Part shown: piece by piece, positions 3 through 56,400 of the stretch
How positions within the stretch are numbered: the first letter of the stretch is position 1
Layout of the letters: each line of letters begins with the position of its first letter
DNA from: Aureococcus anophagefferens
Lineage: Eukaryota > Sar > Pelagophyceae > Pelagomonadales > Pelagomonadaceae
DNA length: 64,000 nt
Assembly (NCBI RefSeq): GCF_000186865.1
Contig: NW_008705590.1
Location: forward strand, 402,341-466,340
Direction of reading: 5' to 3'
The notes under the pieces: generated by a model
Database searches by the model: none
The model's input: the letters and a program-made list of their open reading frames with translations, nothing else
Told to the model about the DNA's origin: nothing
Translations under genes and position numbers: made by a program

Positions 3-3000
3 CTGCGGTCGGGGCCGCCGGGCTCCGAGGATTCGTCGCTCTCGGGCGCCCGGTCGCTCGGCGCGCTGCGCGTCGGGTCGTCGACGCTCGTGTCGACGGT
101 GAAGACGGCGTCCCTCGAGAGCGCGGCGCCGACCCGCGCGGCGGCGGCCGCGGGCGCGTACGCCGAGGCGCCCGCGCCGTCCGAGGACGCGCCGCCGCCG
201 ATGATCCACACGGCGCGCACGGCGTCGCCGACGCCGGGGAGCCGCAAGCGGCCCCGGCGCGGCGACGACGCGCGGCCGCGGACCGCCGACGAGCGGCCGC
301 GGACCGCCGACGCGGCGACGCCGCCGCCGGGCCGCCTCGCGGGCGTCGACGTCGACGAGCTGCTCGGCGCGTCGCGCGACAAGGCCATCCTCGCGGCCGA
401 CGCGTCGCGGCCCGAGCACGAGCTCGCCCTGTTGGAGAACCGGAGCGTGGGCACGCGCGTGACCTTCGACGGCGAGTCCCTGAGCCAGTCGGCCGCGCAT
501 GAGACCGTCTCTCTGGAGGAGCAGAAGACGCTCGAGGGCTCCGAGGCGTCGCCCTTCCCCCTCACGTCCATCGAGGAGGACATGGCGGACCTCACGGAGG
601 CCGTCGGCGGGCCCTACTGCGACATCGACGCGGAATTATTCCTCTCCGCGCACGGCCTCGCGCCGCGGATCCCCCGGAAGAAGACCGTGCGCCTGCTCGA
701 GCGGCTCTTCGCGCCGCCCGTGGGCACGCTGACGCTGGACCAGGCGCGGTTCCTGAGCGCTTTAGACTTCACGCGGCGGGAGCGGAACATGATCGCGGCG
801 ACGCGCGCGGCCGACGGCGGCGGCGGCGGCGGCGCGGGCACGGCGCGCGGCTGGACCGCGGCGCTCTCGCGCGTGACGGGCGGCGAATTGGTAGACGACC
901 CGGTCGTCGAGGACGAGGAGGCGCGCCTGCGGGCCCGGCGGCGGGACTTCACGGTCATGGGCACCGCGCGCAACGAGGCCGCGCTCCGCGCGGCCGACGC
1001 GGCCGTCCAGGGCCACGTGCTCCTGAAAAACGGCGACGTCCCGGGCGTCGGGCCCCTGGGCCGGTCGCCGGCGAAACAGGAGCGGCCGGGCCCGGCCCTC
1101 GACCCCATCGTCGTCAAGCCGTCGGAGGCGAACCGGCTGAACCACGCGTCCGCGGTCATCCGCGAGCAGTCCAAGGTCGCCGCGGCCGCGCGGCGCGTCA
1201 TCACGGACGCGGCCGCGCGCGACGAGCCGCCGGCGCTGGCGGCCGCGGGCGCGCACCTCGTCCACGCGACGCACGACGGCACGGCGAACGGCGCGCTCAA
1301 GGTCGCGGACCCCATGCCCCTCTACGACCTGTTGCGGCTCCTCGACCCGAAGGAGCGGGGCTACTGCAAGGCGTCGGAGTTCAAAACGGCGATCCGCTGC
1401 GCCGCGGGGAACGCGCTGAGCGACAAGGAGATCGACCACCTGGCGGGCCACTACGCCATCGGCGGCGGCCACGCGGAGGACGAGGAGCCCGACGAGCGGC
1501 TCGGGCTCCGGACCGAGGGCCGCGCGCGGAGCGGCGCCGAATTCAACCACCGGTTCGGGTGGTTCTGGTCAAACTTCAGAATGCTCTAGCTCGATCACAT
1601 CGAAGTCGATTCGGCTGATTTTTGGACGAATCGATTGTTCTCGTCGAGTTCTCGAAGCACAGCCGAAGAGCTTGCGTCGAAACTGTCGCATATGCGCACA
1701 TTGAAGTCGAGTTGAAGATTTGACTTCGGCACAGGCGCGGAGCGGCGCGGGCTTCTACGGCGCCGAGGGCAAGGACCCCCTGGCGGAGCCCCTCGTGGAC
1801 TACAACCTCTTCATCAGCTCCGCGAAGCTCGGCGCGGCCTTCGGGCAGGCGCTGCCGTCCGTGCCGTCGGCGCCGTGGTTCAACCTGCAGCGCCGCGAGC
1901 TCGGCGAGCCCGCGCCCCTGGTCGTGCGCACGCTCCGGGGCGCCGACGGCCGGCGCAAGGGCGTCCACGAGCAGCGGAGCACCGCGGGCTCCTGGGACGC
2001 CTACCTGCGCCGCGTCAAGGAGGACCGGTCCGGCGCGTTCGCGTACCTCGTCCGCCGGGGCTTCAAGGCGCTGCGCCACTCGCGGGCCACGCTCGCGTGC
2101 CGGCGCTGGCTCGTCCTGACGGCGCGGCGCGGCGCGGCGGTGCTGGACTTGAAGGCGCGCGCGCGCTTGGCCTACGCGCACTGGATGCGCCAGGTCGCGG
2201 CCAGGGCAGGACAAGAGAGCGAAATTCCCAACTTCAAAGGCTCCTTTCTCGGCCGTTGTCCACTCGTTTCGGCTGATTTTTGGACGAGCGATCATCTCTC
2301 GGAACGGTCTCGAAGCGTGGATGCTTTTCCCGGAACGCGCGCGCGCGGAACACTCACGTTGAAGCGACGTTGAATCACCATTTTGCTGCCCAGGTCGCGG
2401 CGGACGCGTGGCTCAAGCGGCGCGTCGAGGGCGCGCGGCGCCTCATGGAGCGGCGCGCGGACGCGACGCGCTTCCTCGCCATCAAGGCGCGCCTCGCGAA
2501 CCAGCTCGCGGAGGCTCTAGCGCGGGGCCGCGCGAACGCGAACCGCGCGCACGAGCTCTACTACAACCGCTGCGTCGCCTACGAGTACCTCCGGCGGCGC
2601 GGCATCAAGTCCAAGGCGTTGTCCACGGACATGCAGGCGGCCCAGGAGGACCTGAGCAGGCTCGGCACGAACGCCGTGGCGACGCAGGTCATGCGCCAGA
2701 TGGCGCGCGAGTGGCTGTCCGCGCGGTCGCGCGGCGTCATGGACGCGTACAACGAGCAGTGCCGCGTCGCCGAGGAGCTGCGGGAGATGGCGAAGAAGGT
2801 CTTCGCCCAGCAGCAGCTGCGCTTCCGCGACGCGGAGCTGCTCAAGCAGACCGCCGCGAAGACGGCCGTGCACGGGCCCAAGCGCGACGCGTGCCAGTTC
2901 CTCATGTCCAAGCTCGGCGAGGCGGCCATCGCGCGCGTCTACCGCACGCAGAACGCCTTCGAGAGTTTATTGGCGCGGGCGACGGCCTGCATCGCCCACT

Positions 3001-5201
3001 GCGACAACCAGGACCGCGCGAAGACATGGCTCCGGAGCCGCGTCGGCGGGCTCCGCCACGTCGACGAGAACCGCGACGAGGCCAACGGCTGGCTCGTCGC
3101 CGTGGGCAAGCACGCGAAGAAGACGGCCGTCGCCCAGGCGCGCGCGCGCACCTGGCTCGTGCTCCAGAAGGACAACCTGCAGCGGGCCCAGGTCATCCAG
3201 AAGCAGGGCCTGGCGAAGAAGGAGCTCGCGTCCGCGATCCAGCAGGCCAAGGACAAGGCTTTGGGCGACAAGCTGCGGAAGAAGTTCCCGCGGCGCTTCG
3301 CCGAGCTCGAGAAGCTCGTCCGGGCCGAGGAGAAGAAGGTCGTCAAGGACCGGCAGAAGATGTCGCTCGAGGAGCGCGTCGAGCTCGTCGTCACGGACGT
3401 CTTCAATCAGTACGACGTCGACGCCAGCGGTGAGATCGACCGCACGGAGTTCGTCGCCATGATGCGCAACGGCCTGCTCCTGGGCCTCTCGGAGCCGCCG
3501 AAGCGCGCCGCGCTCAAGGACGCGTTCACGCAGATCGACATCGGCCGCGACGGCACCGTCGAGTTCTCCGAGTTCTACAAGTGGTTCACGCACGCGCGGG
3601 CCAAGGGCAAGGAGGGCGCCAAGGTCGCGCCGTCCCTCGAGTCCATCGTCCCCGCCAAGGAGCGCGCGCTGACGCGCATGCTCAAGGAGTACCGGTCCGG
3701 GGCCCTCGCGCTCGACGCCGAGGACCTCAAGCCGCCGCCGCCGAAGAAGCTCGAGGGCGCCGCGTCCATCCGGCGGCCCCTGGCGGAGCTCGAGTCGACG
3801 GACAAGGACCGGGGCTCCCTCGACGACCGCCTCAAAGCCAAGCTCGAGGCCAAGGACTCCGGCCCGCAGGTCGTCGACTCGCGCGGCCGCGTCGAGGAGA
3901 AGGCCGAGAAGGAGGACACGGTGAAGAAGGCGCTCATGGAGCGGCGCGAGCAGGAGATGCGCGGCGAGAACGACCGCGCGTCCGACGCGCTCCTGAGCGA
4001 CGCGAAGCGCGTCTTCGCGCTCATCGACGTCGACGGCTCCGGGAAATTGGCGACGGAGGAGATTTTAAGGGCCATCAAGGAGGACGAGCGCGTCGCGGAC
4101 TTCCTCAAGACGACGCCGAACAAGTTGCTGCAGTACTTCCTCGTGCCCGCCAAGGTCGCCGTCGCCATGGCCGAGGCCGACGCGGACGGCGACGGCGAGA
4201 TCAGCGTCGACGAGTGGGACGCGCTCATCCAGAAGGCGCTCATGGCGAAGCTCGACATCATGGGCGGCCGCCGCGTCGAGGACGACGCCTTCGCCGAGTC
4301 CTTCCTCGCGCTGGCGAACCAGATCTACGACATCATCGACGCGGATGGCGACGAGAATCTGGACAAGCAGGAGATGGTCAAGGCCGTGCAGCACGACGAG
4401 GACGTCATCGAGTTCCTGGTCATGTGCAAGGTCACGGAGCTCCAGGACCTGCTCGTGCCCTCGAAGCTGTCGCGGGCGCTCGACGACATCGACGCGGACA
4501 AGGACGGCATCATCCAGAAGCGGGAGTGGATGGAGTCCATCGACCGCGCGCTGAAGGCGTGCCTCGCGGCGCGCGCGGAGGAGCGCGAGGACGACGACCG
4601 CTTCTCCATCGAATTCCTGAGCCTGGCGCGCGAGGTCTTCCAGCTCATCGACACGGACGGCAGCGCGTCCCTCGACAAGGACGAGATCGTCCGGGGCGTC
4701 GAGGTCAACGGCGACGTGCAGAAGTTCCTCATCTCCTGCGGCAACCAGTACCTCCAGTACCTGCTCGTCCCCGCGCGCGTCAAGGCCATGCTCTGGGAGC
4801 TCGACACGGACCACGACGAGTCCATCTCCCTCGAGGAGTGGGACGCGGCCATCGACAGCGCGCTCAAGACCAAGCTCGACGCGCGGCGCGCGGGCCGCGA
4901 GCGCGACCGCAAGGCCGCGGTCGACGAGCAGCTCCAGGCGGCCCTCAAGGTCAACGCCAAGACGCTCGAGATGGCCAAGCTCGGCAAGAAGCCCGCGGGC
5001 GGCTGGCCGACCATGGGCAAGGACGGCAACGTCCGCGGCGGCGAGTCGCGGGAGCAGCTCCTCGGCCTCACGCCCGAGCAGCTCGCCGAGCAGGCCCGCC
5101 TCGAGAAGGAGGCGCTCAAGGCCGCCTTCGTCGCCCGGCCGAAGAACGCCAAGGGCATCGCCATCTCCGACCGCAGGTCGCGCCTGTGCATCGTCATGTA
5201 A
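3..5201 (+). CDS. Large multi-EF-hand protein with W-L helical repeats (5' partial)
   Basis: Exons 3-1523, 1735-2193 and 2394-5201, about 1,595 residues in the window. The frame is open to the window edge and the first apparent start is a GTG, so the 5' end is missing. Both introns are introner elements (phase 0). The N-terminal ~500 residues are Ala/Arg/Pro-rich with a degenerate EF-like stretch near residue 430. Residues ~620-980 are helical with recurring 'A..WL' units (AADAWLKRR, AREWL, AKTWL, ANGWL, ARTWL), like IQ or spectrin-type repeats. The C-terminal half has eight EF-hand loops with intact DxDxSG or DxDxDG cores (e.g. DVDASGEIDRTE ~1000, DVDGSGKLATEE ~1203, DADGDGEISVDE ~1256, DTDHDESISLEE ~1463), arranged as pairs. 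Likely a calcium-responsive cytoskeletal or scaffold protein; the function is inference. Confidence 0.85.
1532..1734 (+). mobile_element. Introner element, family B (copy B1)
   Basis: A 203-bp element flanked by a perfect 8-bp target duplication GCGCGGAG (1524-1531 and 1735-1742). The right end is GACTTCGGCACAG. The left end CGGCGCCGAATTC matches its reverse complement at about 10 of 13 positions, so the left terminus is decayed. The intron is 1524-1734 (211 bp): its donor is the GC opening the upstream target copy and its acceptor is the terminal CAG. Splicing gives ...GRARSGAGFYG..., in frame. The core TCGGCTGATTTTTGGAC is shared with family A. There is no ORF, so it is non-autonomous. Retention would stop translation at 1587. 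Confidence 0.92.
2202..2393 (+). mobile_element. Introner element, family A (copy A1)
   Basis: A 192-bp element between 8-bp duplications GTCGCGGC (2194-2201 and 2394-2401). The left end begins CAGGGCAGG and the right end is TTTTGCTGCCCAG, imperfect inverted termini sharing GGGCAG. The intron is 2194-2393 (200 bp): donor GT from the target copy, acceptor CAG from the element end. Splicing restores WMRQ|VAADAW in phase 0. Internal sequence is near-identical to the copies at 44345 and 55235. Confidence 0.95.
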
Positions 5202-5254
5202 TTAGCATATGGACCCCAAATACCCCAGACACCTGCGGTTTACTACAAGTAGAT

Positions 5255-5810
5255 CTAGCGCAATCTGACCTCGACCTCGTCCGCGGCGAACTCCTGAAAC
5301 TCCGAAAGGAGATCTCGCAAATAGCCAGGGATGTTCGGATCAAGCTCCTGAGTGAGCCAGTACACATAGAGGGGCCTGTAGAGGCCCTCCCAGGGCTCAC
5401 CGCCCGATTCGAGGCGCTCGAGAGAAGCTCCTTCAAATCACTTGCGGCCGCCTCCATCTCGCCAGATCCGAGTTTCTCGAGTTTGTCAACGTGCGCAAAT
5501 AATTCCATCAGGCGTTGCACCTTGCCGGGGTCGGAACCGCTGTCGAGCCCACGCTTGAGGTGCGCCAGGAACTTGTCATTGGCGGCGAACTTGTCTCTGG
5601 CGGCGTCTGTAACGATGACATCGATCAGGTCGCTCCTTCTCGGGGTAGGGTTCGGTCCTGATGAGATCGTGTCCGTTGAGGCGCGCCGCGAGGTCGTCCG
5701 TGGCGGCGTCGTCCTGGACGATGGCCGTGAAGCTCTTGAGCATCGTCTTAATGAGCAGGTCGAGGCACGGTTTGTACGACGTGACCGTTATAAAATNGCG
5801 GTTCGCGGTT
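5255..5810 (-). pseudogene. Broken gene remnant of unknown origin, adjoining an assembly gap
   Basis: On the minus strand three consecutive frames carry protein-like sequence ending at a stop (plus 5255-5257). The first piece runs TVTSYKPCLDLLIKTMLK... to ...YPEKER. The second runs SDLIDVIVTDAARDKF... to ...ASDLK. The third runs GASLERLESGGEPWEG... to ...EVEVRLR. Two frameshifts join them, at about 5635 and about 5430. Codon use is far less GC3-rich than the neighbours (ATT, TTA, TTT, AAT and GAT occur). The 5' part is lost in the N run. I do not recognise the family. It could be a degraded transferred or viral-like gene, or a poorly sequenced native gene. Confidence 0.5.
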
Positions 5811-5860
5811 NNNNNNNNNNNNNNNNNNNNNNNNNNNNNNNNNNNNNNNNNNNNNNNNNN
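5811..5860. other. Assembly gap (50 N)
   Basis: A run of 50 N with one further N at 5797. The round size suggests a placeholder of unknown true length, so the join between the remnant at 5255-5810 and the gene ending at 5903 is not verified. Confidence 0.97.
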
Positions 5861-5902
5861 GGGGGGTCGTTGTTCGGCGCCGTCGCCGGCGCGCGTCGCT
5901 CG

Positions 5903-8900
5903 CTAGGCCTCGAGCGTCCAGAAGACGAGCGCGGCGGTCGCGGCGAGCGCGAAGATGGCCCAGACGGCCCACGAGGCCCCGTCGCAGGGGTGGGCCGCCT
6001 CGTCGAAGTGGGCCTCGAAGGTCGCGTAGGCCGCGACGGTCCAGACGGCGCCCGCGGCGACGCGGTGCGACGCCGCGCGCCACGCGACCGCGCGGAGGCC
6101 GTTCGTGAGCTCGAGCGCCTTGACGCAGACGGCGACGTAGATGCCCGTGACGAGGGCCATGTTCGTGTAGCCCCAGGACTCCTTGGGGATGACGTAGAGG
6201 ACGAGCTGGGACTTGCGCGTGAGGAGCACGTGGAACTGGAGGAGGTAGAACTCGAGCGAGTGCATGCCGATCCACTCGACGGGCCGCGCCACGTGGTTCG
6301 TGAGCCAGGGCGTCGCGTTCCGCGCGAGGAGGTAGGCGGGGATCCACAGGGGCCCGACGTAGGCGTTGATCTTGCGGTACTCCGCGCCGCCGTCGCAGCA
6401 GTACGCGGGCCGCTTCGCGACGGAGACGGCGACGGCGAGCGCGGCGGCCGCGCAGACGCCGAGCGCGCCCTTCTTCGCCGCGGCCATGGCCGGCCAGGCG
6501 TCGCGGAAGCGCGCGTAGACCGCGGCGAAGAGGAGGCCGTGGATGGAGCTCAGGTAGTCCATGCGCGTCCGGGACCAGAAGTAGTCCGCCGTGTGGTCGG
6601 AGATCTTCGCGAGCCACCAGTCGAAGACGTAGTAGTACGGCGTCCCCCGCGCGCCGTCGCGCTGCGCGCCCGGGAGCAGGGGCGGCACCCAGAGCACGAC
6701 CGTGAGGACGACCATGAAGACCACGCCCAGCGCCTTCTCCGCGTCGCGCGCCTCGCGGCCCGCCTTGCGATCCGGCGCCGCCCAGCCGAGGCACCGGCCG
6801 CCGACGAACCGCGCGGCGCCCAGGCTCAGGAAGATGAGCCCGAAGTGGACCGTCGCGAGCGCGACGAAGTAGTAGTCGATCCACGCCGTGTTCGTCGCCA
6901 TGGCGAGGAGCGCGCAGAGGAAGTTCATGCGCCAGAGCTGCTGCGCGAAGCGCTTCGGCGAAAAGTCCGCGGAGCTCCAGAAGTAGACGCCGTTGCCGAA
7001 GCCCGTGAGCCAGACGTAGGCGCTCACGGCCCAGCGGATGGGCACGTAGACGTCCTGGGCGTTCGTGTAGTGGTACGCGACGAAGGCGACCTGCATCCAG
7101 CCCTTCCACTCGTTCGCCTGCGCGCGGCTCATGAAGAGCGCGGCCTCCTTGCCGCCGTCGACCTCGAGGGGCCGCATCTGCCAGGCGCTCGCGAGGGCCA
7201 GCGACGCCATGACGAAGGTCCAGAGGTCCACGTTCTCCGTCCGCACGGTCGTCCCCGCGGGCAGCAGCCCCGCGGGCATGCGCGAGTCGCCGATCGCGCA
7301 GGCCGCGAGGAGGAGGCCCATCTGCGCCGCGGCGGCGCACGCGGCGCGCGTCTTCGCGCCGGACGGCGGCGGCGGCGGCGGCGCCTCGGCCCGGGCCTCG
7401 ACGTCGCCGGCCTCGGACTCGTCGGCGTCCGAGTCGCCGCCGTCGTAGAGCGAGAACGCGACGGACGACATGCGGCCGTCGCGCCCGCCCGTCGCCGGCG
7501 CGTACTCGGAGAACTGCGACGCGCTCTTCCGCCCGCCGACGTAGTGCGACAGGCGCGACGCGGACGTCCGCGACGCGCGGTGGCGCCGCGACGCGCTCGC
7601 GTGGGTCACGCTCACGGAATTGCGCCCCGTCGCCGCCTCGCGCTTCTCCATGTCCCGCAGCACGGCGAGCGCCGCGCCCGACAGCTCGACGTCGATGGGG
7701 TCGCCCCGCTTCTCCGCGGCCGGCGGCGCGCCCGTCGCGGGCCCGCGCCCGACGCGGGCCCGCGCGGCCGCGACGAGCGCCGCGGCGAGCACGGCGACGG
7801 CGACGGCGAGGAGGACGCGCTGCCCGGGCGCGGGGCAGACGCCGAGGACCTCGCTCAGCTCCGGGCCGTCGCGCGCGTAGGCGACGCCGTCCGGGCCGTC
7901 GAGGGAGCCGCAGGTCGACACGTCGCGCACGTTGCCGTCGTTCCCGTAGCCGCCCTCGTCGTCGTCCTCGCGCGGCGGCGGCGCGGGGTTCGGCGCCCGC
8001 GTCGGCCGCGGCGTCGGCGCCGGCGTCGGCGAAGGGGTGTCGCCCGGCCGGGGCGTGGGCCGCGGCGTCGGCGAGCGCGTCGGCTTCGGCGTGCCCGGGC
8101 CGCCGCCGGCGAGGCAGGACTCGCGGCCGAGCTTCCGCGCGACCTTGTTGAGGAAGAGCTGGACCCAGGCGTACTGCACGGCCGCGCGCGGGTGGCCGCC
8201 GTCGAAGGTGCGGCCGTCCGGGTCCCCCGGGTCGCCCGCGCCGACGTCGCTGAGGTCCGCCGTGTCCTGCACGTCCATGATCTCGACGCCGCGGTCGCTG
8301 AGGACCTGGGTCGCCACGGCGTTCATCGCGGAGACGGCGATGGACCCCTCGCGGAGCTCGCCCGCGTCCATCTTCGTGTCGCCGCAGCAGTTGCAGGTCC
8401 GCCAGACGGCCATCTTGCCGTCCGCCTGGAAGTGGCGCAGGAGGCCGTCGTAGAGCGCCGCGACCTCGTCGCCGTAGGCGTCGAGGCACGCGCCCTTCTC
8501 GTACATGTCCGACTCCTCGCAGTCCGTGCCGTCGTCGTCCGACGCCTTGAGCTCCCACCACCCGCTGTTGGCCAGGAGGACGTCGTAGCCGCCCCGGAGC
8601 TCGCCGCTCAGCGTCTCGAGGTCGCCGTACCACGTGTCCTGGATGAAGAAGAAGGTCGTCGTCGCGCCGCCCTCGAAGGCCGCACTAATCTTCTGGCGGT
8701 GCGACGACTTCTCCGGCGACCGGTCCGTGCCGTCGTCGGTCCACGTCGTCCCGTCGTCGTAGTAGTCGTCCGTCGGCTCGGGGCCCCAGTGGTCACCCTC
8801 GTACTCCGGCGGGATCTCGCCCGTGTTGAGGAAGTAGTTGAGCGTGAAGGCGAAGTAGCGCTGGATCGAATCGCCGAGGATCGCGACGCGCGTATTTGAT

Positions 8901-30663: not shown

Positions 30664-33193
30664 TTAGCGCAGCTTCGACGGGCAGCAGACGAGGCAGCAG
30701 GGGCAGTTGTCGACCATGAAGTCGGACTTCTTCGAGGACGCGTGGGACCGGTCGATCTCCAGGGACCTGCCGATGTTCGCGAAGCCCGCCTCGTCGAAGG
30801 CGCCGCCGGCCTCGACGACCTTGGCCAGCGCCAGGAGCGTCGTGTCGTCGCGGAAGAGCAGGTCGTCCGGCAGGCCCGCGCACCCGAACTTGGCCTCGAG
30901 GACGCCCTTGAACTGCGCGAGGTCCATGGAGTCGATGCCCGAGTCCACGAGGGGCTGCGTCGCGCGGATCGAGTCCGCGGGCCGCCGCGCCAGCAGCGCG
31001 AGCTCCGTCGCGAGGTCCGCTAAAACGCCGCCCGCGGCGACCGCGCCGTCGGCGCCCGCGGCGCGCGGCTGGCTCGCGACGAGGCGCGTCGTCTCGTCCG
31101 TCGGTGGCGCGGCGCCGTCGCGCAGGTTCGCGGCGAAGGCGACCTTCAGCGACCCCGCCGCGTGGCCCGCCTTGCAGCGCTTCCGCGCGATCTTGCCCGA
31201 CGTCGTCTTCGCGATCGTCCGCGGCTTCAGGAACACGAGGGCGTCGACGGCCGCGCCGTGCTCCGCGGCGACGGCGTTCGCGACGAGCTCCGCGAGGGCG
31301 CCGTAGCCCAACGCGCCGTCCGGGCCCTCGCGCGCCGCCAAACCCCGCCGCCGCCGCTGCGCGGCGTCGTCGTCGCGGACCTCCGCGAGGACGACGAGCC
31401 GCTCCTCGCCGCCGTCGTCGACGGAGAACGCCGCGACGCAGCCCGGGCGCAGCGACTCCGGCGCGGCCCGCTCGACGGACCGCTCGATGTCCTGGGGGTA
31501 GTGGTTCTTGCCCCGGAGGATGACGAGGTCCTTGAGGCGGCCGCAGACGAAGAGCTCGCCGCGGAGCAGGAAGCCGACGTCGCCCGTGCGGAGCCAGGGC
31601 CCCCCGGTGCCGTCGGCGAGCTCCGCGCGGAACTCGCCGTCGCAGTCCCGGTTCCAGTAGCCGGCGGCCGTGGACGGCGACGACACCCAGATCTCGCCGA
31701 CGCGGCCCTCGCCGAGCCGCTTTTTCGGGCCGTCGTCGTCGTCGCCGCAGTTGGACACGATCGCGACGTCGACGCCCGCGTCGGCCCGCGGCGCGCCGCA
31801 GCCCACGAGCCACTCGCCGTTCGCCGCCTCGACGACGAGGCCGTCGGCGCGCAGCGCGTCGCCGTCGACGCGCGCGGCCGCCGCGCCGTTGCACGTGACC
31901 ATGACCGTCGACTCCGCGAGGCCGTAGGTCGGGAAGACGACGTTCTCCGGCAGGCCGTGCTCCCGCCCGTAGAAGGCGACGAAAGCGTCGAGCGCGCCCT
32001 TGTCGACGGGCTCCGCGGCGTCGATCATGTGCTCGACGCAGCTCAGGTCGAGCCTCGCCGCCGGCGGCTTCCGCGTCGACAGCGCGTACGCGAAGTTCGG
32101 CGCCTGCATGTGCGTGCCCCGGAACTTGGCGATGGCCTCGAGCCAACAGGCCGGCCGCTTCACGAAGGTGAACGGCGACGCGTAGAAGCCCGACCCGCCG
32201 CAGCGGAGCGTGCCGAGGTAGCTCCCGATCAAGCCCATGTCGTGGTACTGGGGCAGCCAGGAGACGCACACCGTCTTCTCCGTCGCTTTCAGCTCGGAGA
32301 CGATGAGGGTCAGGTTGTGGGTCAGGGACGCGTGCGTGATGACGACGCCCTTGGGCTCGGACGTCGAGCCCGACCTGTGTGCAAATCAACCGGTGGAACG
32401 CCCCGTCCGGCAAAAACTTCAAACCTCTCTAGCTCGGTCACATCGAAGTCGATTCGGCTGATTTTTGGACGGATCGATTGCTCTCGTCGAGTTCTCGAAG
32501 CACAGCGGAAGTGATTGTGTCAAAACATTCGAATACGCTCACATTGAAGTCGGGTTGAAGATTTGATTTCCACACAGAGCCCGACGTGTACTGGAGGAAC
32601 GCGACGTTCGCGTGGGGGCCGTCGACGGGCCCGTGGGGCAGGCCGTCGCCCTTCTTGCCCAGGTCCGCGTCGCAGACGATCCACTTGAGCGACTCGGGCC
32701 AGGCGACGCCCCGGGGCCCGAAGACGGACGCCGCGGACGCCGCGAGCGCGCCGGCCTTCTTCGCCCAGCCGTACGCCGTCGACGTGAGCGCGAACCGGGC
32801 GTCGCAGGAGCCGCAGATGGACACGAAGGCGCCGAGCTCCGCCGTGAACTTCTTCCGCGGCTCCGGCGGGAACACGGGCACGGCGACGCAGCCGCGGCGG
32901 CCGCAGCCCAGGAACGCGACGACGAAGCTGAGGCACGGCTCGTAGACGAGCACGCAGCGGTCGCCGACGCCGACGCCCTCCCGGTTCGCGAGGCGCCAGG
33001 CGACGCGCGCCGCCAGGAGCTCCACGGACGCGTAGCTGAGCTGCCGGCCGAGCTCGACGGCGCCCCGCTTGTCGTCCCACCAGCTGAAGAGCGGCACCTC
33101 GCCCTTCTCCCGGGCGCGGACCGCCAGGAGCTCCGACAGCGACGTCGCTTGGTCCGCCGTCCCTTCGCCGGTGAGGCACGCTGCCGCAGCCAT
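30664..33193 (-). CDS. Fatty acyl-AMP ligase with C-terminal acyl-carrier domain
   Basis: Exons (minus) 33193-32586 and 32374-30664, 772 residues. Adenylate-forming fold: the P-loop is YTSGSTSEPKGVVITH, whose codon for its first Thr is split by the introner. Then SWLPQYHDMGLIGSYLG, a hallmark of the FAAL/FadD32 group, GLAES, GGPWLRTGDVGFL and the catalytic Lys region RTIAKTTSGKIARKRC. FAALs make acyl-AMP and pass the acyl group to a carrier rather than to CoA. Here the carrier is attached: LVDSGIDSMDLAQFKGVLEA carries the phosphopantetheine Ser. The protein ends in a Cys-rich tail, NCPCCLVCCPSKLR, possibly lipidated. No reductase or ketosynthase follows in the chain. The start is ATG 33193. 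Confidence 0.9.
32375..32577 (+). mobile_element. Introner element, family B (copy B3), antisense to its host gene
   Basis: A 203-bp element with termini CTGTGTGCAAATC and GATTTCCACACAG (12 of 13 matching as an inverted repeat) and a perfect 8-bp duplication AGCCCGAC (32367-32374 and 32578-32585). Its internal sequence reads like B1 and B2 on the plus strand, but the host gene runs on the minus strand. On the host strand the intron is 32585 down to 32375 (211 bp): the target copy GTCGGGCT gives the GT donor, and the element's left end read backwards gives ...GCACACAG. Splicing restores QYT|SGSTSEPKG. Confidence 0.93.
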
Positions 33194-43701: not shown

Positions 43702-45412
43702 ATGTTCGCGCTCATCATGATCCTAGCCTCCGCGGCCTCCGCCCACGTCGTGGACCCCAAGGGCCTCGTCCGAACGCCCACGGGCGCCACGGTCGCGAAC
43801 GCGTCGAACATCAACTCCGCCCAGTCGCGCGCCGTCGTCGCCACGGGCGTCGACTCGGCGTGGGTCAAGCACCTGGGCCCCTCGGACTCCCTCGACGCCT
43901 GCGGGGCCCTCTGCGCGGCCCTCTCCGCCGCCAACGGCACGGCCTGCCGGAGCTACACGCGCTACGCCGACGCGCACGCCAACGAGACGCTCCGGGGCAA
44001 ATGCTACGGCCACGTCGACCGCGCGTGGCTGCCCCTCGCGCAGGACCACGTCGACGCGGGCATCCTCGACCTGCCCTGCGCCTCGGCCCTCGACTGCAGC
44101 CTCAACGGCGCCTGCGTCGCGCCGTCGGACCTGCCGCATCCCGTCTGCGAGTGCGACGGCGGCTGGACGGGCCCCCGCTGCGAGTCGCTCGACTTCGAGG
44201 ACGTCGACGGCGCCGTCCTGGGCTTCGACCCCGTGGAGGGCGGCGCGAACATGTCGAGCTGGGGCGGGGGCATCCTCCAGATCGACGGCACCTGGCACCT
44301 CTGGGCCTCGGAGCTCGCGAACCACTGCGGCATCTCGTCGTACACAGGGCAGCAAAAGAGAGCGAAATTCCCAACTTCAAAGGCTCCGATCTCGGCCATT
44401 TTCCACTCGTTTTGGCTGACTTTTGGACGAGCGATCATCTCTCGGAACGGTCTCGAAGCGTGGATGCTGTTTCCGGAACGCGCGCGCGCGGAACACTCAC
44501 GTTGAAGCGACGTTGAATCACTCTTGTGCTGCCCAGGTCGTACATCCTCAACTCGGGCGTCGTCCACGCGACGGCGGCGGACGTCGCCGGGCCCTACGTC
44601 AAGGACGGCGCCGCGGGCTACGTCATCCCGCCCTTCGCCCACGAGCCCGTGGTGTCGCGCGCGCCGACGGGCGAAATCGTCCTCGTCGCGGTCGCGGGGC
44701 AATTGAACGCGTCGTTCCCGAGCTGCGACTGCGTCGACGGCACGACGGTCGCCGGCTGCGGCTGCGGCGCCATCCCGGGCAACGACTGCCACCCCCAGGT
44801 GCCCACGCTGCTCTTCGCCGACGGACCCGCGGGCCCCTGGACGAGCCGGCCGCTCTTCCCCGACGCGACGCGCGGGGAGAACCCGAGCGTCTGGATCGCG
44901 CGCGGCTCCGGCGTCGTATGCGCGCGCGTCGAAAAGGGGGGAGGTCGCCCCATAGGTCCAACGGCAGCGCCTACGGCATGTCGCGCGGCGGCTCCATGTC
45001 CGCGTTCGCGGCCGACTGGCGGAACGCGTCGGCGTGGGTCCACGGCGTCGAGGGCGCGAGCGGCCTGCCCGGCAAGCCCGACGTCGAGGACCCCTTCATC
45101 TACCAGGACGGCGAGGACCGCTTCCACGCGCTCCTCCACAACCTCGAGGGGCCCCACATGGGCGCGGACCCCATGCTCGTGGGCGTCCACGCGTTCAGCG
45201 AGGACGGCCTCGCCTGGCACTACGGCGGCCTCGCCTACACGAACGTCGTCCGGCTCGCGGACAACACGTCGGCGACCTTCAACCGCCGCGAGCGGCCCCA
45301 CCTCGTCTTCGGCGAGGGCGACGCCGCGCGGCGGCCGCTCGCGCTCGCGACGAGCGCGGAGGCCCGGGGCGCCGGCGACCGGAGCTTCACGCTCGTCCAG
45401 GCCCTCCGCTAA
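43702..45412 (+). CDS. Secreted EGF + GH43/GH32-like beta-propeller glycosidase-type protein
   Basis: Start ATG 43702 with signal peptide MFALIMILASAASA (upstream TTG ignored). Exon 1 ends 44336 and exon 2 starts 44537, flanking an introner. Splicing gives CGIS|SYILNSGVV. A second discontinuity near 44905-44955 shifts frame (…NPSVWIARGSG to SNGSAYGMSRGGSMS); the stretch ending CCCATAG at 44955 looks like a short intron with an uncertain, possibly GC, donor. An EGF-like domain lies at ~130-165 (CSLNGACV, then CECDGGWTGPRCE). After it is a five-bladed propeller-like fold (DGTWHLWASELANHCG, then HEPVVSRAPTGEIVLVAVAG, VEDPFIYQDGEDRFHALLH) as in GH43/GH32 enzymes. Likely extracellular glycan binding or cleavage. 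Catalytic acids not assigned. Confidence 0.78.
44345..44536 (+). mobile_element. Introner element, family A (copy A2)
   Basis: 192 bp; begins CAGGGCAGCAAAAGAG and ends CTTGTGCTGCCCAG. Perfect 8-bp duplication GTCGTACA (44337-44344 and 44537-44544). The intron is 44337-44536, 200 bp, in phase 2. Donor GT comes from the target copy and acceptor CAG from the element. It differs from A3 at only a handful of positions. Confidence 0.95.
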
Positions 45413-45413
45413 G

Positions 45414-47663: not shown

Positions 47664-47881
47664 GGTCACTGGCGCCGCCGGGAGCGTCGAGACTGGCCAG
47701 CTCGCATCCAGCGCCTCGCGGGCTGTGGCAGCTGAAGGTTGGCGATGCAGCGCATGGTGCAGCGCTCAGCGCGTGGGCGCCGACGTCCAGCGCCAGACGC
47801 GCGGGCCCAGCGCACGCAAAAATTAGCCGAAACCGCGAGAAACGCGCCGTTACTCGGCTCGGACGAAGGGGCGACGCGCGC

Positions 47882-50333: not shown

Positions 50334-50828
50334 TCAGGGCATCGGCGGCGGCGGCGGCGCCTGGAAGTGGGCCGCCTGCGGCGGCATGGCGACGGGGTGC
50401 CCCGCGAACTGCATGGGCAGCCCGCCGCCGGCGTCGAAGAGCGGCATGGGCGGCATGACGGCGGGCGCCTCGCCGTAGGACTCCGGGTAGCCCTGCTGGG
50501 GCAGGTGGAGGTGCCGGACGACGAGCCGCTCGTCGATCTCGACTTGCGTCGCGACGGTCTTCATGTCCGGCGGCGTCTCGCCGTCGGCGCGGAGCACGCG
50601 CGGCTGGTACGGGCAGATGTGGCCGCGCTTCGGCTGCCCGCACTTGGAACACCGGTAGTTGGTCCGGTTCCGCCGTCGCGCGCCGTTCGCCGCCGCGGCG
50701 CCGCCGGCCGCGGCGCCGCCGGCCGCGGGCACGGGCGCGGCGGACGGCGCGCCGCCGGCGCCGGCGTCGGCCGTCGTCACCATGGCGTCCGGCGCCGCGA
50801 AGGGCTGCTTGGCGTCGAAGCCCGACAT
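50334..50828 (-). CDS. Small Pro-rich protein with a C-x2-C-x5-H-x2-C zinc-knuckle-like motif
   Basis: 164 residues from ATG 50828 (MSGFDAKQPF). The frame extends upstream without an ATG-supported domain. The only conserved element is RTNYRCSKCGQPKRGHICPY, a CxxCGxPKxGHxC zinc-binding motif that recurs in many eukaryotic nuclear proteins. The flanks are Ala/Gly-rich before and Pro/Met/Ala-rich after. Probably a nucleic-acid- or protein-binding nuclear factor; not further identified. Confidence 0.65.
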   Translation of the reverse strand: MSGFDAKQPFAAPDAMVTTADAGAGGAPSAAPVPAAGGAAAGGAAAANGARRRNRTNYRCSKCGQPKRGHICPYQPRVLRADGETPPDMKTVATQVEIDERLVVRHLHLPQQGYPESYGEAPAVMPPMPLFDAGGGLPMQFAGHPVAMPPQAAHFQAPPPPPMP

Positions 50829-51314
50829 GGGGCGGGGCACCGAAAGCTTTTCGAGGAACGCGCCGAGAACGGGGCGCGGCGGCGATGGCGCGCCGCCGGA
50901 GCTCGGAGTTTTGAGGCGAGGGTGTTCGAACGTCCGTCCACGAGCCAGGCGCGCCGCCGCTCGGACGTTCGGACGCCCCGTTCGCACCTCCAGTCCGCGT
51001 CCACCCGAGCTGCTTTGTGAGAGAGAGCCGGCTCCTTCCCGGCTGCGTTACCACAAGTCTCACGAGGCGATTCGGCGATGGCCACACCATCCCATCCGGT
51101 AGGGCCTACCGAAGGGCGCGACGCATCTCTCGAGGCGGCGAGACGCCTCCTGGCTGGCGCTGGCCGGGTGTGCTAGGCGCTATCCTTAGCGCATCGGCAG
51201 GCAGGCGAGCCGACCCCCTGCCGCGCAAGCTCATGTTGCGGCTCGACCATCAAGTGGCGAGGTGAGGACACCGACGCCGCTCGAGGACATCCGCCGGCCC
51301 TCGTGCCGCCCTCG
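50829..51314. other. Divergent promoter region
   Basis: 486 bp between divergent genes (starts 50828 and 51315). Open frames here have shadow composition only. I see no repeat or RNA gene. Confidence 0.4.
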
Positions 51315-51989
51315 ATGGTAGCTATGGCCTCCTACTTCCCGCCCCTCGTCATCGCCGGCTGCAGCGGCGCGGGAAAGGGGACGCTCATCGCGAAGCTCAT
51401 GGCCTACGACGCCGCGTCCTTCGGCTTCTCCGTGAGCCACACGACGCGGTCGCCGCGGCCCGGCGAGGTCGACGGCGAGCACTACCACTTCAGCGACGTC
51501 GCCTCCGTGAAGCGCGACATCGACGCGGGCCTCTTCATCGAGTCCGCGAACGTCCACGGCAACTACTACGGCACGTCCAAAGCGGCCGTCGAGGCCGTGC
51601 AGGCCGCGGGCAAGATCTGCATCCTCGACATCGACGTCCAGGGCGTGCAGCTCGTGAAGAAGTGCGGCATGGACTGCAAGTACATGTGGATCGAGGCGCC
51701 GGACATGGCGGCGCTCGAGGCGCGGCTCCGGGGCCGCGGCACGGAGACGGAGGAGAAGGTGCTCAAGCGCATGGGCAACGCCGAGGTCGAGATGGCCTTC
51801 GCCCACCCCCTCGACGGCCACGCCGAGAAGCCCTTCGACGCCTACGTCGTCAACGGCGACGTCGACGCCGCGCACGCGGAGATGGTCGCCGTCCTCGAGG
51901 GCTGGTACCCCCACATCGCCGCGCCGAAGCGCGCCAACCCCTGCGCCGTCGTCTCGGGCTTCTTCGGCAAGCTCTTCTCGCCGCGCTAG
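51315..51989 (+). CDS. GUK1: Guanylate kinase
   Basis: 224 residues from ATG 51315 (ATG 51324 also possible). The P-loop is AGCSGAGKGTLIAKL, with Cys where most guanylate kinases have Pro. The GMP-binding block is FSVSHTTRSPRPGEVDGEHY, then HYHFSDVASVKRDIDAGLF and ESANVHGNYYGTSKAAVE. Walker-B-like ILDIDVQGVQLVKK and the lid Arg region ARLRGRGTETEEKVLKRM are present. All are diagnostic. It phosphorylates GMP to GDP with ATP in purine salvage. Length is normal, with a ~20-residue C-terminal extension. No plastid leader, so cytosolic. Confidence 0.94.
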   Translation: MVAMASYFPPLVIAGCSGAGKGTLIAKLMAYDAASFGFSVSHTTRSPRPGEVDGEHYHFSDVASVKRDIDAGLFIESANVHGNYYGTSKAAVEAVQAAGKICILDIDVQGVQLVKKCGMDCKYMWIEAPDMAALEARLRGRGTETEEKVLKRMGNAEVEMAFAHPLDGHAEKPFDAYVVNGDVDAAHAEMVAVLEGWYPHIAAPKRANPCAVVSGFFGKLFSPR

Positions 51990-52111
51990 GGCGCGCCCGC
52001 GGCCTAAGATGTGACGACCGGGCTCGGCCGCGCAGATTCGCGCGTCGCTCGGTCGCGCGCGGCGGCGCCACGCGCGGCGCCCGCGCCCCGCCTCGTCCGG
52101 ACCGGCGCGCC

Positions 52112-53314
52112 TTAGGGCTCCCAGGGCACGCGCCGGTTCCCCGGCAGGCACAGGTCCGCGAAGACGGCCGAGTCCGCGTCGCGGAACTGCGCCGCGAGGC
52201 ACGGGTCGAGCGCGTCGAGCTCCAAGGCGACGTCGTCGAAGTTCGCCACGCTCCGCCGCAGGTCGTCGCTCGTGATCTTGACGGACGTCGACCGGGCGAG
52301 GACCTCGGGCACGGGCTCGCCCTTGCCGCCGAGCCCGACGGCCGCGAAGAGGCGCTCGATCTCCGCCTTCGGGTCCAGTTGGAGCGCCTCGTAGTACATG
52401 ACGAAGGGCCGCGCCCCGCCGGCGGCCTCCGTGACGTTGTCGAGGAGCGAAGACCACTTGAGCGCGTCGCCGTGCGCGCCCGCGGCGAGCTTGCCCGCGT
52501 GGAGCGCGAGCGGCTTCTCGAGCTCCGCGCCTGGGCAGCACTGATTCAATGTCGCTTCAACGTGAGTGTTCCGCGCGCGCGCGTTCCGGAAAAAAAAACA
52601 TCCACGCTTCGAGACCGTTCCGAGAGACGATCGCTCGTCCAAAAATCAGCCAAAACGAGTGGAAAACGGCCGAGATATGAGCCTTTGAAGTTGGGACTTT
52701 CGCTCTCTTTTCCTGCCCTGCTCCGCGCGGTGCTCCTCGTAGCACTCGCGGGCTTTGGCGGTGACGACCTTGTGCGTGCCCCAGCAGAACTTCTGGAGCA
52801 CGTCGGCGTGGACGTTGCTGACCTTGCGCTTGACGAGGTTCGACCGCGCGTAGACCACGGGCGTCACGTCCGGCAGGCGCAGCAGCCGGGGCCAGTCGCC
52901 GCGCCAGGTGAGCGGCGCCGCGTTCTGCCGCAGGAGGTGCTCCGCGGCGACGTCGAAGCCCACGATCTTGCCCGCGAGGCAGCCCGGCCGCGCGCGCGGG
53001 TCCTCGGCGGCGGCGACGGCGAACGTCGGCACGCCCGCGTCGTCGTAGGCCCTGCAGGTCATGTTGCAGCGCGGCGCGCCGAGGATGCCGAGGAACGTGC
53101 GCAGCGTGTCGCTCCGCACGCGGGACGGATCCACCTGGACTTTCTTATTGAAGCAGTTGTTCGCCTCGTGCTCGAAGTACGCCACCGCCGGCTCGTGGGC
53201 CAGCATGTCGGCCATCCACGTGCTCCCGGTCCGCGACTCCTTGAAGACGACGATCTTGTAGGCCTTCTTGTAGGCCGCGGTTCTCACCACGAGGAGGAGC
53301 AGGAAGCCTCGCAT
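52112..53314 (-). CDS. Sulfotransferase-like protein, secretory
   Basis: Exons (minus) 53314-52729 and 52530-52112, 334 residues. Start ATG 53314, signal MRGFLLLLVVRTAA. YKIVVFKESRTGSTWMADML is the 5'-phosphosulfate loop region of PAPS-dependent sulfotransferases (K/R-x-R-x-G-S-T-W). VTPVVYARSNLVKRKVSNVH gives the 3'-phosphate-binding Arg/Ser. The end PKAEIERLFAAVGLG, then CLAAQFRD, is typical of the C-terminal helix. Its intron is an introner with a GC donor, joining EEHR|AELEKPL. Likely sulfates carbohydrate in the Golgi, fitting the sulfated polysaccharides of marine algae. Confidence 0.82.
52531..52720 (-). mobile_element. Introner element, family A (copy A4), GC donor
   Basis: 190 bp on the minus strand, sense to its host. 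On that strand it begins CAGGGCAGGAAAAGAG and ends GTGCTGCCCAG. The 8-bp duplication reads GCGCGGAG on the host strand (plus 52721-52728 and 52523-52530). The intron is 52728 down to 52531 (198 bp) with donor GC from the target copy and acceptor CAG. Same target octamer as copy B1. It carries an A9 run (GGAAAAAAAAAC on plus) where other copies have fewer bases. Confidence 0.93.
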
Positions 53315-53479
53315 CGCCGTCAGATTTTATGCCCAATTTTTATCCCATGCCGGGCTGCATCTCCCGGCCGCGGACGAGGGATTTCTACTAGTAATTTGTG
53401 ATAATTTTGTGGCAGCTCGATCAGCTCGCGCCCGCGCCGCCGCAGGCCGGCCATCGAGGGCGCGAACGCGGCCGCCAAG

Positions 53480-56400
53480 ATGCTCGACTCGTCCGTGGAG
53501 CCCGAGCGCTTCGCGGAGCGCGTCGTCGTGCTCCTCGACTCCGCCGAGGGCCTCATGGCCCGGACGCACCGCCTCTCGGAGCAGCTGCGGAGCGAGGAGA
53601 AGCGGTTCAAGGCGCTCAAGGAGCCCGAGTGGAAGGGCGTGCGGTCGAAGCTGACCAAGGCCTTCCCCGAGCTGCCGGACCTGAGCCGCGACTCGAAGCG
53701 CGGCGCGGCGCCCGGAAAACCCGCGCGTTTCCGCGGGGAAAACGAACGACGGGAGAATCCGCAGGTACGAGTCGTTCCAGAAGAGCGCGGCGGGGACCAT
53801 GGGCGAGCTCAAGTACGCCTACGAGCTCTTCCTGGACCTCGAGGCCCACGTCGCCGTCCACGCGGCCACCCTGAAGGCCATGGCCGCGCAGCTCGCGTGC
53901 TGGGATTTGACGGTCGGCCGCGAGTCGTCGCGCGCGTTCGTCGCGCTCTTCTCGGCCTTCGTCCGGGTCGTCGCGCTGGCGGGCATGGTCGACGACCGGC
54001 GGCTCGTCTGCTCGCTCTACGCCGCGGCCCACGCCTGCGCGCGCGGGTCCAGCGAGCCCAAGTTCGCGCGCTTGGCGCAGCAGTCGCTGCGGACGTACGA
54101 CGAGCCGTTCCGATCCGTCGGCGCGGTGTTCGCGGACTACGTGCCCGTCGTCGGCACGCTCGTGAAGAACGTGCTCAAGCACGTCCTGCTGATCGTCGGC
54201 GGCTCCGGCGAGCTCCTGCGGCGCAACGCGCTGACGATGCTCGAGGACAACCTGTCGCTCGGGCAGCCGACGATGGCGCCGCTCGACGCGCAGCACAAGG
54301 GCCGGAGCGACGTGCCCCTGCTCCACGGCGAGCTCCTCGAGGGCCGCGGCGCCTGCGACTTTGTGGTCTTCGCGACGCTGGCGACGCCGGGCGTCCTCGC
54401 GGACCCGGGCTGCCTCGCGTGCTGCCAGCTCGCGTGCGAGGACGCCTTGGTGACCGGCGTCTACCGGTCGTCGACGGTCAACGTCCACGCGGAGCTCGAG
54501 GGCCTGGGCAAGGCCTGGCCGCCGCGGGGCTACTCGGGCAAGTGGCCGCGGGACCTGAAGCTGTCGAAGACCTTCAAGGAGTGGTCCAAGGCCGCGGTGC
54601 TCAACTGCGGCCACCGGCACCGCGAGCGGCGCGCGTACCTCTGCGGCGAGCTCGACGTCATGCAGGGCCTGCTCACCGCCGTGCCGGGCCTCGCCGCGCC
54701 CAAGGCGCCCCTCGCCGTCGCCGCGTGTGCGCTCGCGCACGACGAGGTGCTCTGGGCGCTCCGCCACTCGCCCGCGAACGGCGCCGCGGCCTACCCGCCC
54801 AAGTACCGCGTCAAGCACTACGACGCCGACAACTTCTCCTTGAAGGGCGTCGAGAAGCTCGCGGCCGCGGCCGTCGACCTCGGCGCGCTGCTCCGGCGCG
54901 AGCGGCGCGCCGTCGCGCGGTACCACGTCGAGTTCCTCGCCAAGGCCGACGCGGCGGCGCTCGAGGCGCTCGGGGCCCGCGCGGCGGCGGCGCTGCCCGC
55001 GGACCACGTGCCGAGGAACGCGCCCGCGTTCTTCGAGAGGCTCGGCGACCGCCTCGCGAAGCTCGGCGACGGCGAGTGCGGCAAGTGCGCGGACGACGCG
55101 CTCGCGGCCATGGCGCGCGCGGAGCGCGACGGCCACTTCGTCGGCGGCCGCGGCGCCGCGGCGGGGCTCCGGCGGTCGACGCTCGGCACGTTGGTGCTCG
55201 ACTGGCGCCGCGTGCATTTCGTGCTCGTCGGGTCCAGGGCAGCAAAAGAGAGCGAAATTCCCAACTTCAAAGGCTCCTATCTCGGCCGTTTCCCACTCGT
55301 TTCGGCTGATTTTTGGACAAGCGATCATCTCTCGGAACGGTCTCGAAGCGTGGATGCTTTTTCCGGAACGCGCGCGCGCGGAACACTCACGTTGAAGCGA
55401 CGTTGAATCACCCTTTTGCTGCCCAGGTCGGGTCGACGCACGCGGCGTCGATGCTCAAGGACGGCTCCGTGCGCGACGCCTGCGCGCGCCTGAACCTCGT
55501 TGTGGACCACTGCGGCCTCGCCGACGGGTCGCTGGCGCTCGCGCACTGCGACGCGGGCGCGTGGTGGCCCTACCGGCTCCTCCTCGAGGACGCGGCCGCG
55601 GCCGCGCTCAAGTCGGGCGACGCGCTCGCGGCGCCGCGGGCGCTCCGGGCCATGCTCGCGACGGCGCGGGCCGCGCGGCGCACGCAGGGCCACCCGGCGC
55701 AGGAGGGCGACTGCGCCGACCTCGAGCGCGACGCGCGCGCGTTCGGCGCTGTGTGGAATTCGACCGCCGGTTTGGGTGGTCCCGACCAAACTTGAGAATT
55801 CTCGAGCTCGATCAAATCGACGTCGATTCGGCTGATTTTTGGATGAACCGATGGCTCTCGTCGAGTTCTCGAAGCACAGCCGAAGAGCTTGCGTCGAAAC
55901 CGTCGCATACGCGCACATTGAAGTCGGGTTGAAGATTTGAATTCCACGCAGGTTCGGCGAGCGGACGCTCGAGCTCCTCCGCGCGGGCGTGTCGTCGTCG
56001 CTGCGGACCATCGCCGCCAAGGAGGACCAGCTCGCGTGCCAGATCGCGCCCGTGGAGGCGGCCTACCGCCTCGAGCGCCGCGAGGCCGCGCAGCGCGAGC
56101 TCGACCGCAAGGGCGGCGGCGGCGAGCGCGCCAAGGAGGAGCCGCCCGCGGGCTACGAGTCGCTCCCCGCCAACGCCGCGTCCGTGCAGCCCCTCGCCGT
56201 CGCCGACGCGCGCCTCGCGGCGACCATGGCCTGGGCCAAAAGCGACCACCGCGAGGACCCGGACGCGTCGCCCGACGCGGCCGCCGTCGTCGTCGGCGAC
56301 GCGAAGCTGCGGCCCGCCGAGGCCGCGCGCGACGCCGTGCTCGCCTTCCTCGACAGGCAGATCCCCCGCGCCTTCTTCGACGACGAGGGCCGGCTCATCC

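Follow-up and report, generated by a model that had tools for sequence, protein, structure and literature searches.

Seven short elements flanked by 8-bp duplications lie in genes of the window

In the 64,000-bp stretch of Aureococcus anophagefferens DNA that was analysed (the window), seven elements are each bordered on either side by a perfect 8-bp direct repeat (target site duplication, TSD). The copies at 2202, 44345, 52531 and 55235 (190-192 bp) belong to family A, with terminal inverted repeats (TIRs) CAGGGCAG...CTGCCCAG that carry a single mismatch at position 2, and the copies at 1532, 32375 and 55749 (203 bp) to family B, with TIRs CTGTGTGG...CCACACAG.

Predicted intron 1 (1524..1734, plus strand, 211 bp, GC-AG) consists of the TSD GCGCGGAG (1524-1531) and a family-B introner (1532-1734), followed by the second TSD at 1735-1742; the 5' end of this copy is divergent (CGGCGCC versus CTGTGTG) and its acceptor end is intact. 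Predicted intron 2 (2194..2393, plus strand, 200 bp, GT-AG) is made up of the TSD GTCGCGGC (2194-2201) and a family-A introner (2202-2393), with the second TSD at 2394-2401. Predicted intron 3 (32375..32585, minus strand, 211 bp, GT-AG) contains a family-B introner (32375-32577) between TSDs at 32367-32374 and 32578-32585; the repeat reads AGCCCGAC on the forward strand, and the intron borders on the coding strand are GTCGGGCT...CACACAG. Predicted intron 4 (44337..44536, plus strand, 200 bp, GT-AG) combines the TSD GTCGTACA (44337-44344) with a family-A introner (44345-44536), the second TSD lying at 44537-44544. Predicted intron 5 (52531..52728, minus strand, 198 bp, GC-AG) comprises a family-A introner (52531-52720) and the TSD at 52721-52728, with the other TSD at 52523-52530; the repeat is CTCCGCGC on the forward strand and the coding-strand borders are GCGCGGAG...CTGCCCAG. 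Predicted intron 6 (55227..55426, plus strand, 200 bp, GT-AG) joins the TSD GTCGGGTC (55227-55234) to a family-A introner (55235-55426), with the second TSD at 55427-55434, and predicted intron 7 (55741..55951, plus strand, 211 bp, GT-AG) joins the TSD GTTCGGCG (55741-55748) to a family-B introner (55749-55951), with the second TSD at 55952-55959.

Given the base composition of the window, one exact 8-bp match is expected by chance with a probability of 6.7e-5, and seven in seven with about 6e-30. A family-blind scan of the window for an 8-bp repeat, inverted ends (cut-off 9 matches of 12) and the G[TC]..AG rule picked up six sites, every one among the seven; the copy at 52531 was missed because its ends match at 8 of 12. 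Twenty shuffled windows yielded 1 site in total.

The initial annotation had proposed these seven copies with their perfect duplications, and all seven were recovered at the positions it gave. Its reading of each intron as one duplication plus the element, with the donor taken from the TSD and the acceptor formed by the element end, fits all seven at the sequence level. It also correctly recognised the copies as introners with TIRs and TSDs, assigned them to the Aureococcus group and described the right splice architecture. Its description of the donor as the first two bases of the upstream copy applies to the five plus-strand copies and needs correction for the other two: the copies at 32375 and 52531 serve minus-strand genes, so that their donor is formed by the final two bases of the right-hand repeat, read in reverse complement. 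The term 'nearly identical' for family A was slightly too strong, as the remaining A copies of the window are 90-96% identical to the copy at 2202, and the median divergence from the consensus is 6.2% for 16 A copies (15% for 12 B copies), none of these being top search matches.

Removal of one duplication plus the element restores host reading frames

When one duplication and the element are taken out, the host reading frame is restored for the window copies. Introns 1 and 2 belong to one host gene, in which removal of both leaves 1595 open codons from the left edge of the window to a stop at 5201. The sole named match of the protein encoded at 2394-5201 is JL721_2634 of Aureococcus anophagefferens, and the two agree except in blocks that the JL721_2634 model lacks, in a single divergent stretch and at a few residues. 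The host gene of intron 3 (copy 32375) encodes a fatty acyl-AMP ligase-like protein; the junction falls within YTSGST^SEPKG, and the rebuilt motif aligns without a gap to YTSGSTGDPKG of the solved ligase 7r7f_A. The first 333 residues of the intron 4 host protein have EGF-like matches only, all below the cut-off, and the intron 5 host protein (copy 52531; 334 residues) is sulfotransferase-like according to a Pfam match that is likewise below the cut-off. Introns 6 and 7 share one host gene, which is Nck-associated protein 1 (Nckap1)-like and without the two introns has 1214 open codons, 1176 when counted from a methionine. At the junctions of 55235 and 55749 there is no insertion or deletion relative to the related proteins P0003 (98% identical) and P0004 (67% identical).

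Genome-wide survey of introner copies

A first look at the 49.05-Mb assembly gave 2058 candidates for family A and 1727 for family B, two lists that may overlap because the families share a core, and 40 candidates of each family were scored. The A-terminus pattern occurs at 1695 places genome-wide compared to 38 in the control, which amounts to some 830 A elements even if every one showed both ends.

The sampled loci are biased toward copies most like those of the window and comprised 90 copies after de-duplication. In this sample an exact 8-bp duplication was found, with small boundary shifts allowed, for 74 of the 90 copies (A 40/47, B 34/43), and for 69 of the 90 without any shift. Identity at the ninth base drops to 19/40 (A) and 13/34 (B). 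Two B copies (L041 and L050:1501) are without a good TSD, matching at 5/8 positions each.

For the frame test five of the 90 copies were dropped, and four of the resulting 85 sit in two genes used for training the codon model. The frame was restored at offset 0 in 80 of the 85 copies, at offset 1 in 2 and at offset 2 in 0, so that the restoration of the host frame, claimed initially, extends from the window genes to most of the sampled copies. Among the five that fail are three (L052, L058 and L045) whose flanks disagree on the coding strand. Where the signals pointed to one strand and the flanks agreed, the splice strand predicted from the sequence alone was the coding strand in every copy (71/71); L052 and L058 have one-strand splice signals but disagreeing flanks and stand outside these 71. 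With the boundaries as measured, six of the 85 copies obey neither strand rule.

Donor rule, orientation and proposed mechanism

The window copies are almost certainly members of two families of known Aureococcus introners, that is, non-autonomous MITE-like DNA transposons which, judging from their borders, would be spliced as TSD plus element. In the mechanism that we propose, a transposase supplied from elsewhere would cut the target with an 8-bp stagger, gap repair would duplicate those 8 bp, and the transcript would hold TSD-element-TSD. Where the coding-strand TSD starts with GT or GC, this dinucleotide would serve as the donor and the AG at the 3' terminus of the element as the acceptor; the predicted intron thus comprises precisely one TSD and the element, and splicing would leave the mRNA unaltered. 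Insertions without a usable donor would presumably be removed by selection. Since the TIRs of B are symmetric, with a 3' CAG on either strand, B is expected to work in both orientations; in A a 3' CAG is usually confined to one strand, and nearly all of its copies share one orientation.

Among the first 100 listed of the 1695 A-terminus places, 57 ends carry AG, and G[TC] comes next in 57/57 (GT 32, GC 25), compared to a window background of 0.205 (20.5%). For B, a donor is present on at least one side in 100/100 of the first 100 listed of 180 places (background 0.364), and at the 12 ends among these 100 that are non-AG, the donor lies on the side served by the other end (12/12). Target preferences are common among DNA transposases, and the G[TC] rule could in principle reflect such a preference rather than selection for splicing, the more so as a mobilising transposase was not found in searches of the own genome. 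We consider this very unlikely, because the A rule is one-sided: the same ends (57/57, first 100 listed of 1695 places) all have G at position 1, whereas position 8, which would mirror it if a transposase acts on similar ends, is mixed (G18 C15 A15 T9). Moreover, among the 71 strand-decidable copies, of which A contributes 39 sense and 2 antisense, the B donor sits on whichever side the gene strand needs (17 sense, 13 antisense).

That the copies are ordinary, unspliced MITEs in pseudogenes or broken genes, and match the frame by chance, is extremely unlikely. Five of the 85 copies do misfit the frame test, and the junctions are known from sequence alone, but 80/85 restored frames, 71/71 decidable strands and G[TC] after AG in 57/57 (first 100 listed of 1695) would be unexpected among unspliced insertions, and in both genes checked the joined protein can be aligned to relatives. 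Spread as RNA through reverse splicing, as proposed for fungal introner-like elements, would agree with a repeated unit that coincides with the intron and with copies in genes, but can practically be dismissed in favour of spread as DNA, given the exact 8-bp TSDs and TIRs that mark DNA cut-and-paste, a duplicated host 8-mer that differs between sites (a few recur) and does not travel with the element, and the presence of B in genes both ways round, an arrangement that would not result from sense introns being reverse-spliced.

A conserved core shared by families A and B

The two families differ in their ends and have a conserved internal core in common. Per 10-bp bin, the blocks that B has in common with A are 88-97% conserved in the 12 B copies outside the top matches, against values down to 55-59% in other internal stretches; the 16 A copies outside the top matches are too alike to reveal the block contrast seen in B. 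Within the scored copies, duplicates included, there are 98 core matches with at most 2 mismatches. At 32375 the B core is antisense to the host gene. It is conceivable, though on balance improbable, that A and B are variants of a single element whose core, CGGCTGATTTTTGGACGA with its flanking blocks, is constrained, and whose terminal repeats, together with the acceptor and the orientation rule, have been exchanged. If so, the core would be the part read by the mobilising machinery or the spliceosome. Two 144-base pieces, the first from an A copy and the second from a B copy, did not show a consistent RNA fold (z-scores +2.1 and -2.0).

The 20-base core also matched one viral contig (L068), which has 39% G+C and is tailed phage-like by its frames. 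Transfer by a virus was rejected and the match is taken as chance, as the profile match is limited to the core and lies in an open frame of this phage-like contig.

Comparison with known introners

Huff, Zilberman and Roy (2016, Nature 538:533) reportedly located the co-opted splice site in the duplicated target. As summarised in later papers, the Aureococcus introners of Huff et al. (2016) take one splice site from the transposon and co-opt the other from the gene (PMC9612004, PMC10228655; also PMC9481584, PMC9860276). In those descriptions they are, in the same species, short non-autonomous TIR transposons with direct repeats, found in both orientations and carrying one splice site. Their characteristic length in A. 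anophagefferens is given as 210 bp (PMC9481584), and the introns of the window measure 198, 200 or 211 bp. No difference in kind was found in this comparison with the descriptions in later papers. As far as these accounts go, they attribute the mechanism to Huff et al. (2016) for Aureococcus, and we judge the finding to be already known.

Gozashti et al. (2022) describe a type in Symbiodinium (their Figure 2B) with a TSD donor and an element acceptor, an architecture shared by the window copies (PMC9860276). Their survey also has GC donors at up to 50% and, in Aureococcus sp., a family whose TSD is 8 bp (PMC9860276). The Aureococcus sp. example in their Figure 2F brings both of its splice sites with it and lengthens the mRNA by 12 nt (PMC9860276), whereas the window copies are predicted to add nothing. 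Insertion of introners in nucleosome linkers has been reported for A. anophagefferens (PMC9860276). The introner-like elements of ascomycetes are likewise similar introns multiplied across genes, but are reported without TIRs and TSDs, unlike A and B (PMC9860276). Introner elements of Amoebophrya have direct and inverted repeats at the intron borders, as here, but the direct repeats are 3-5 nt and variable in length and position, and the elements were defined among non-canonical introns (PMC7789003).

Introners are a documented route by which thousands of introns arise fast, and a clean example therefore bears on intron origins, a case already made with Aureococcus in 2016. The details added here are that B occurs in either orientation and A almost only in one, that GC accounts for 25 of 57 A donors (among the first 100 listed of 1695 places), and that the families share a core. 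What the window and genome offer is a measurable one-sided donor rule, two orientation behaviours, frequent GC donors and the conserved core.

Search for a mobilising transposase

Elements of 190-203 bp are too short to encode a transposase. Profile searches of the own genome, run exon by exon and therefore liable to miss split genes, gave 0 matches for KDZ (PF18758) and hAT (PF05699), for which the controls were silent too, and 0 for Merlin/IS1595 (PF12762) and MULE (PF10551). With the P-type profile (PF21787) one locus was found, on contig C25, and a protein search added two near-identical subtelomeric copies (L066/L067). The latter represent a P-type (THAP9-like) element of about 5.2 kb with TIRs CAAGGGGATCTTCAAG..., which are unlike those of A or B, and an 8-bp TSD was not found in the flanks of the L066 copy; we do not claim this element as the mobiliser. 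Neither the profile nor the protein searches of the own genome found a transposase with ends matching A or B. At the C25 locus the upstream stretch reads N. An introner-like copy adjoins the C25 transposase, but given the density of introners in the genome and a further B-like copy at a distance of 4.6 kb, this is not strong evidence for a connection.

Introners of the Window and Their Predicted Splice Architecture

Direct reading of the sequence bore out the starts proposed for the seven elements in the initial annotation and the identical 8-mers bounding each of them. Self-comparison placed 2202, 44345, 52531 (reverse) and 55235 in family A and 1532, 32375 and 55749 in family B; over the aligned parts, identity to one reference copy was 90–96% for the other A copies and 86–89% for the other B copies. 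A family-blind scan of the 64 kb, which used an 8-bp repeat, inverted ends and G[TC]..AG and no family sequence, returned six sites, every one among the seven introners, and the same scan gave one site in total on 20 shuffled windows. One tRNA was detected in the window (ARAGORN), and an Rfam search of it gave nothing above the cut-offs.

The proposal that each intron equals one 8-bp copy plus the element holds for all seven on the coding strand. The introns containing introners 1532, 2202, 32375, 44345, 52531, 55235 and 55749 (introns 1–7) are 211, 200, 211, 200, 198, 200 and 211 bp long and have the donors GC, GT, GT, GT, GC, GT and GT, respectively, and the acceptor is CAG in all seven. Joining is predicted to restore the host frame, as had been claimed: removal of introns 1 and 2 gives an open frame of 1595 codons, counted from the left edge of the window, removal of introns 6 and 7 one of 1214 codons, and excision of introns 3, 4 and 5 likewise leaves open frames. 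The protein at 2394–5201 matched an ENA record (P0001, 99% identical) and the A. anophagefferens hypothetical protein JL721_2634 (P0002, 88% identical), the mismatch with the latter consisting mostly of whole blocks absent from its gene model, plus one differing stretch. The DNA is assigned to A. anophagefferens or to a strain very close to it.

Two tests draw on more than open frames. Introner 32375 lies in a fatty acyl-AMP ligase relative, where the predicted junction rebuilds YTSGST^SEPKG, which aligns ungapped with YTSGSTGDPKG of the best solved structure. The host gene of introns 6 and 7 is Nckap1-like, and neither junction shows an indel relative to relatives that are 98% and 67% identical. 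Among five more distant relatives, deletions of 2–6 residues occur near the first junction in four, including an MMETSP transcript (55%), and in the fifth there is none; at the second junction, a single additional residue is present in three of the five and absent from the other two.

Copies, Frame and Orientation in the Assembly

The assembly to which the window belongs (49.05 Mb, 86 contigs) was searched and yielded 2058 first-look candidates for A and 1727 for B, in lists that may overlap, and 40 were scored per family. The locus sample consisted of 30 loci per family plus further copies in their flanks and is biased toward copies resembling those of the window. Searching the window and the 60 loci with a profile produced 102 matches; removal of seven partial or cut ones left 95, and de-duplication 90. 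An exact 8-bp target site duplication (TSD) was found in 40/47 A and 34/43 B copies when small boundary shifts were allowed (38/47 and 31/43 without shift), and identity falls at base 9 (19/40 and 13/34). The B copies at L041:1501 and L050:1501 have no matching TSD (5/8 each), perhaps as a result of recombination between copies. The B-like elements L004:1057, L040:2551 and L052:2839 are divergent, score low and have different terminal repeats, which suggests that there are more introner subfamilies besides A and B.

Omitting five copies (poor TSD, short or too near the locus end), 85 of the 90 were analyzed with a codon model trained on two window genes, in which four of the 85 lie. When exactly the TSD plus the element was excised, the flanks shared one coding frame in 80/85; a one-base shift fitted 2/85 and a two-base shift 0/85. 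The phases 0, 1 and 2 of 75 introns numbered 31, 14 and 30. For copies with splice letters on one strand and agreeing flanks, the strand given by the codon model was that of the splice letters in 71/71. Relative to the core, 39 of the A copies among these were sense and 2 antisense, and 17 of the B copies sense and 13 antisense. Two further A copies (L052 and L058), outside the 71, had one-strand signals and disagreeing flanks; by splice letters, A ran 40 one way and 3 the other. Because of these strand counts, B appears to function in both orientations and A nearly always in one. At the measured boundaries 6/85 copies fitted neither strand rule: by the printed letters, moving the boundary by one base brings four of them (L014, L050, L055 and the B copy of L032) into line with the rule, and the two L054 copies had been measured with a three-base shift.

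The A copies of L032 (1897), L036 (2544) and L058 (1148) carry splice signals opposite in strand to their core, backed by the codon model in two of three (L032 and L036). CAG is still found at both element ends on the splice-signal strand, as if the core had been flipped between the terminal bases.

The Donor Rule Genome-Wide

A degenerate pattern of the A terminus occurs at 1695 places in the assembly vs. 38 for the reversed control. The first 100 in the list cover contig 1 and the beginning of contig 2 and include some pairs of ends from a single element; 57 of them are AG ends, and a donor follows directly in 57/57 (GT in 32, GC in 25) against a G[TC] background in the window of 0.205. The other 43 had the complementary 5′-end signal in 37 cases and lacked it in 6. 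Position 8 of the TSD at the 57 AG ends is without a matching bias, so the rule is one-sided. The one-sidedness points to selection for splicing as its source, and away from a transposase that acts on similar ends and prefers such targets. The B-terminus pattern was found at 180 places vs. 0 in the control; in the first 100 listed, 88 have an AG end, and one flank or both carry a donor in all 100 (background 0.364); in the 12 without AG, the donor lies on the side that the opposite end serves (12/12). The observation is borne out far beyond chance, and the interpretation that introners would form introns from their own duplications holds at sequence level. The GC share of A donors, 25/57 at the listed AG ends and 24/39 in the locus sample, is in or near the range of up to 50% given for introner families in PMC9860276.

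A Shared Core and Published Introners

The A and B consensus sequences differ at their ends and have blocks in common centrally and toward the 3′ end. In 12 B copies outside the top matches, these blocks are conserved at 88–97% per 10-bp bin (70–130) and at 97% and 91% (170–190), and other stretches drop to 55–59%; 16 such A copies were too alike for a B-type contrast, their lowest bins being the ends and 120–130. An 18-base core (≤2 mismatches) gave 98 matches inside scored copies, duplicates included, and two more in introner-like copies on L062. A splicing role of the core is not obvious because B is apparently spliced both ways; a role in mobilization is a guess.

Huff et al. (2016) are reported to describe a co-opted splice site inside the duplicated target. 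According to PMC10228655, that study drew on transcriptomic data and described insertions in either orientation. In the passages compared, a characteristic length of ~210 bp is given for A. anophagefferens introners (PMC9481584), the mechanism is generalized (PMC9860276), and an 8-bp TSD is in print for Aureococcus sp. only (PMC9860276, legend of Fig. 2F). The passages compared do not state which splice site A. anophagefferens introners carry. As far as these sources extend, the architecture is already in print for this species except for TSD length and the carried site, and the seven window introners are an ordinary, clean case of a known phenomenon in the species of its first description. 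The shared core and the one-orientation habit of A were not found described in the passages compared, which come from papers later than Huff et al. 2016, and we claim no newness for either.

Transposase Search

The domains searched were those of transposase families known to make 8-bp or similar duplications. The mobilizer of the introners was not found among them (P-type, KDZ, hAT, Merlin and MULE; controls for hAT PF05699 and KDZ PF18758 were silent too), and P-type (THAP9-like) domains were the only ones matched. One kind is a subtelomeric element of ~5.2 kb with an intact 563-codon transposase frame, present as two 99.9% identical copies at the ends of contigs C2 and C11 (L066:2698–7969 and L067:4458–9667). 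In the L066 copy, the inverted ends span ~60 bp (CAAGGGGATCTTCAAG...), are unlike the terminal inverted repeats of introners and lack matching 8-bp flanks. The other is a gene on contig C25 at ~177.9–179.3 kb (L061:1063–2442 = L062:75–1454), a 460-codon frame in which seven TAG codons, but neither TAA nor TGA, break the reading. Its end is overlapped by an introner-like copy on the other strand, beyond which the DNA is richer in A+T; the upstream stretch consists of N.
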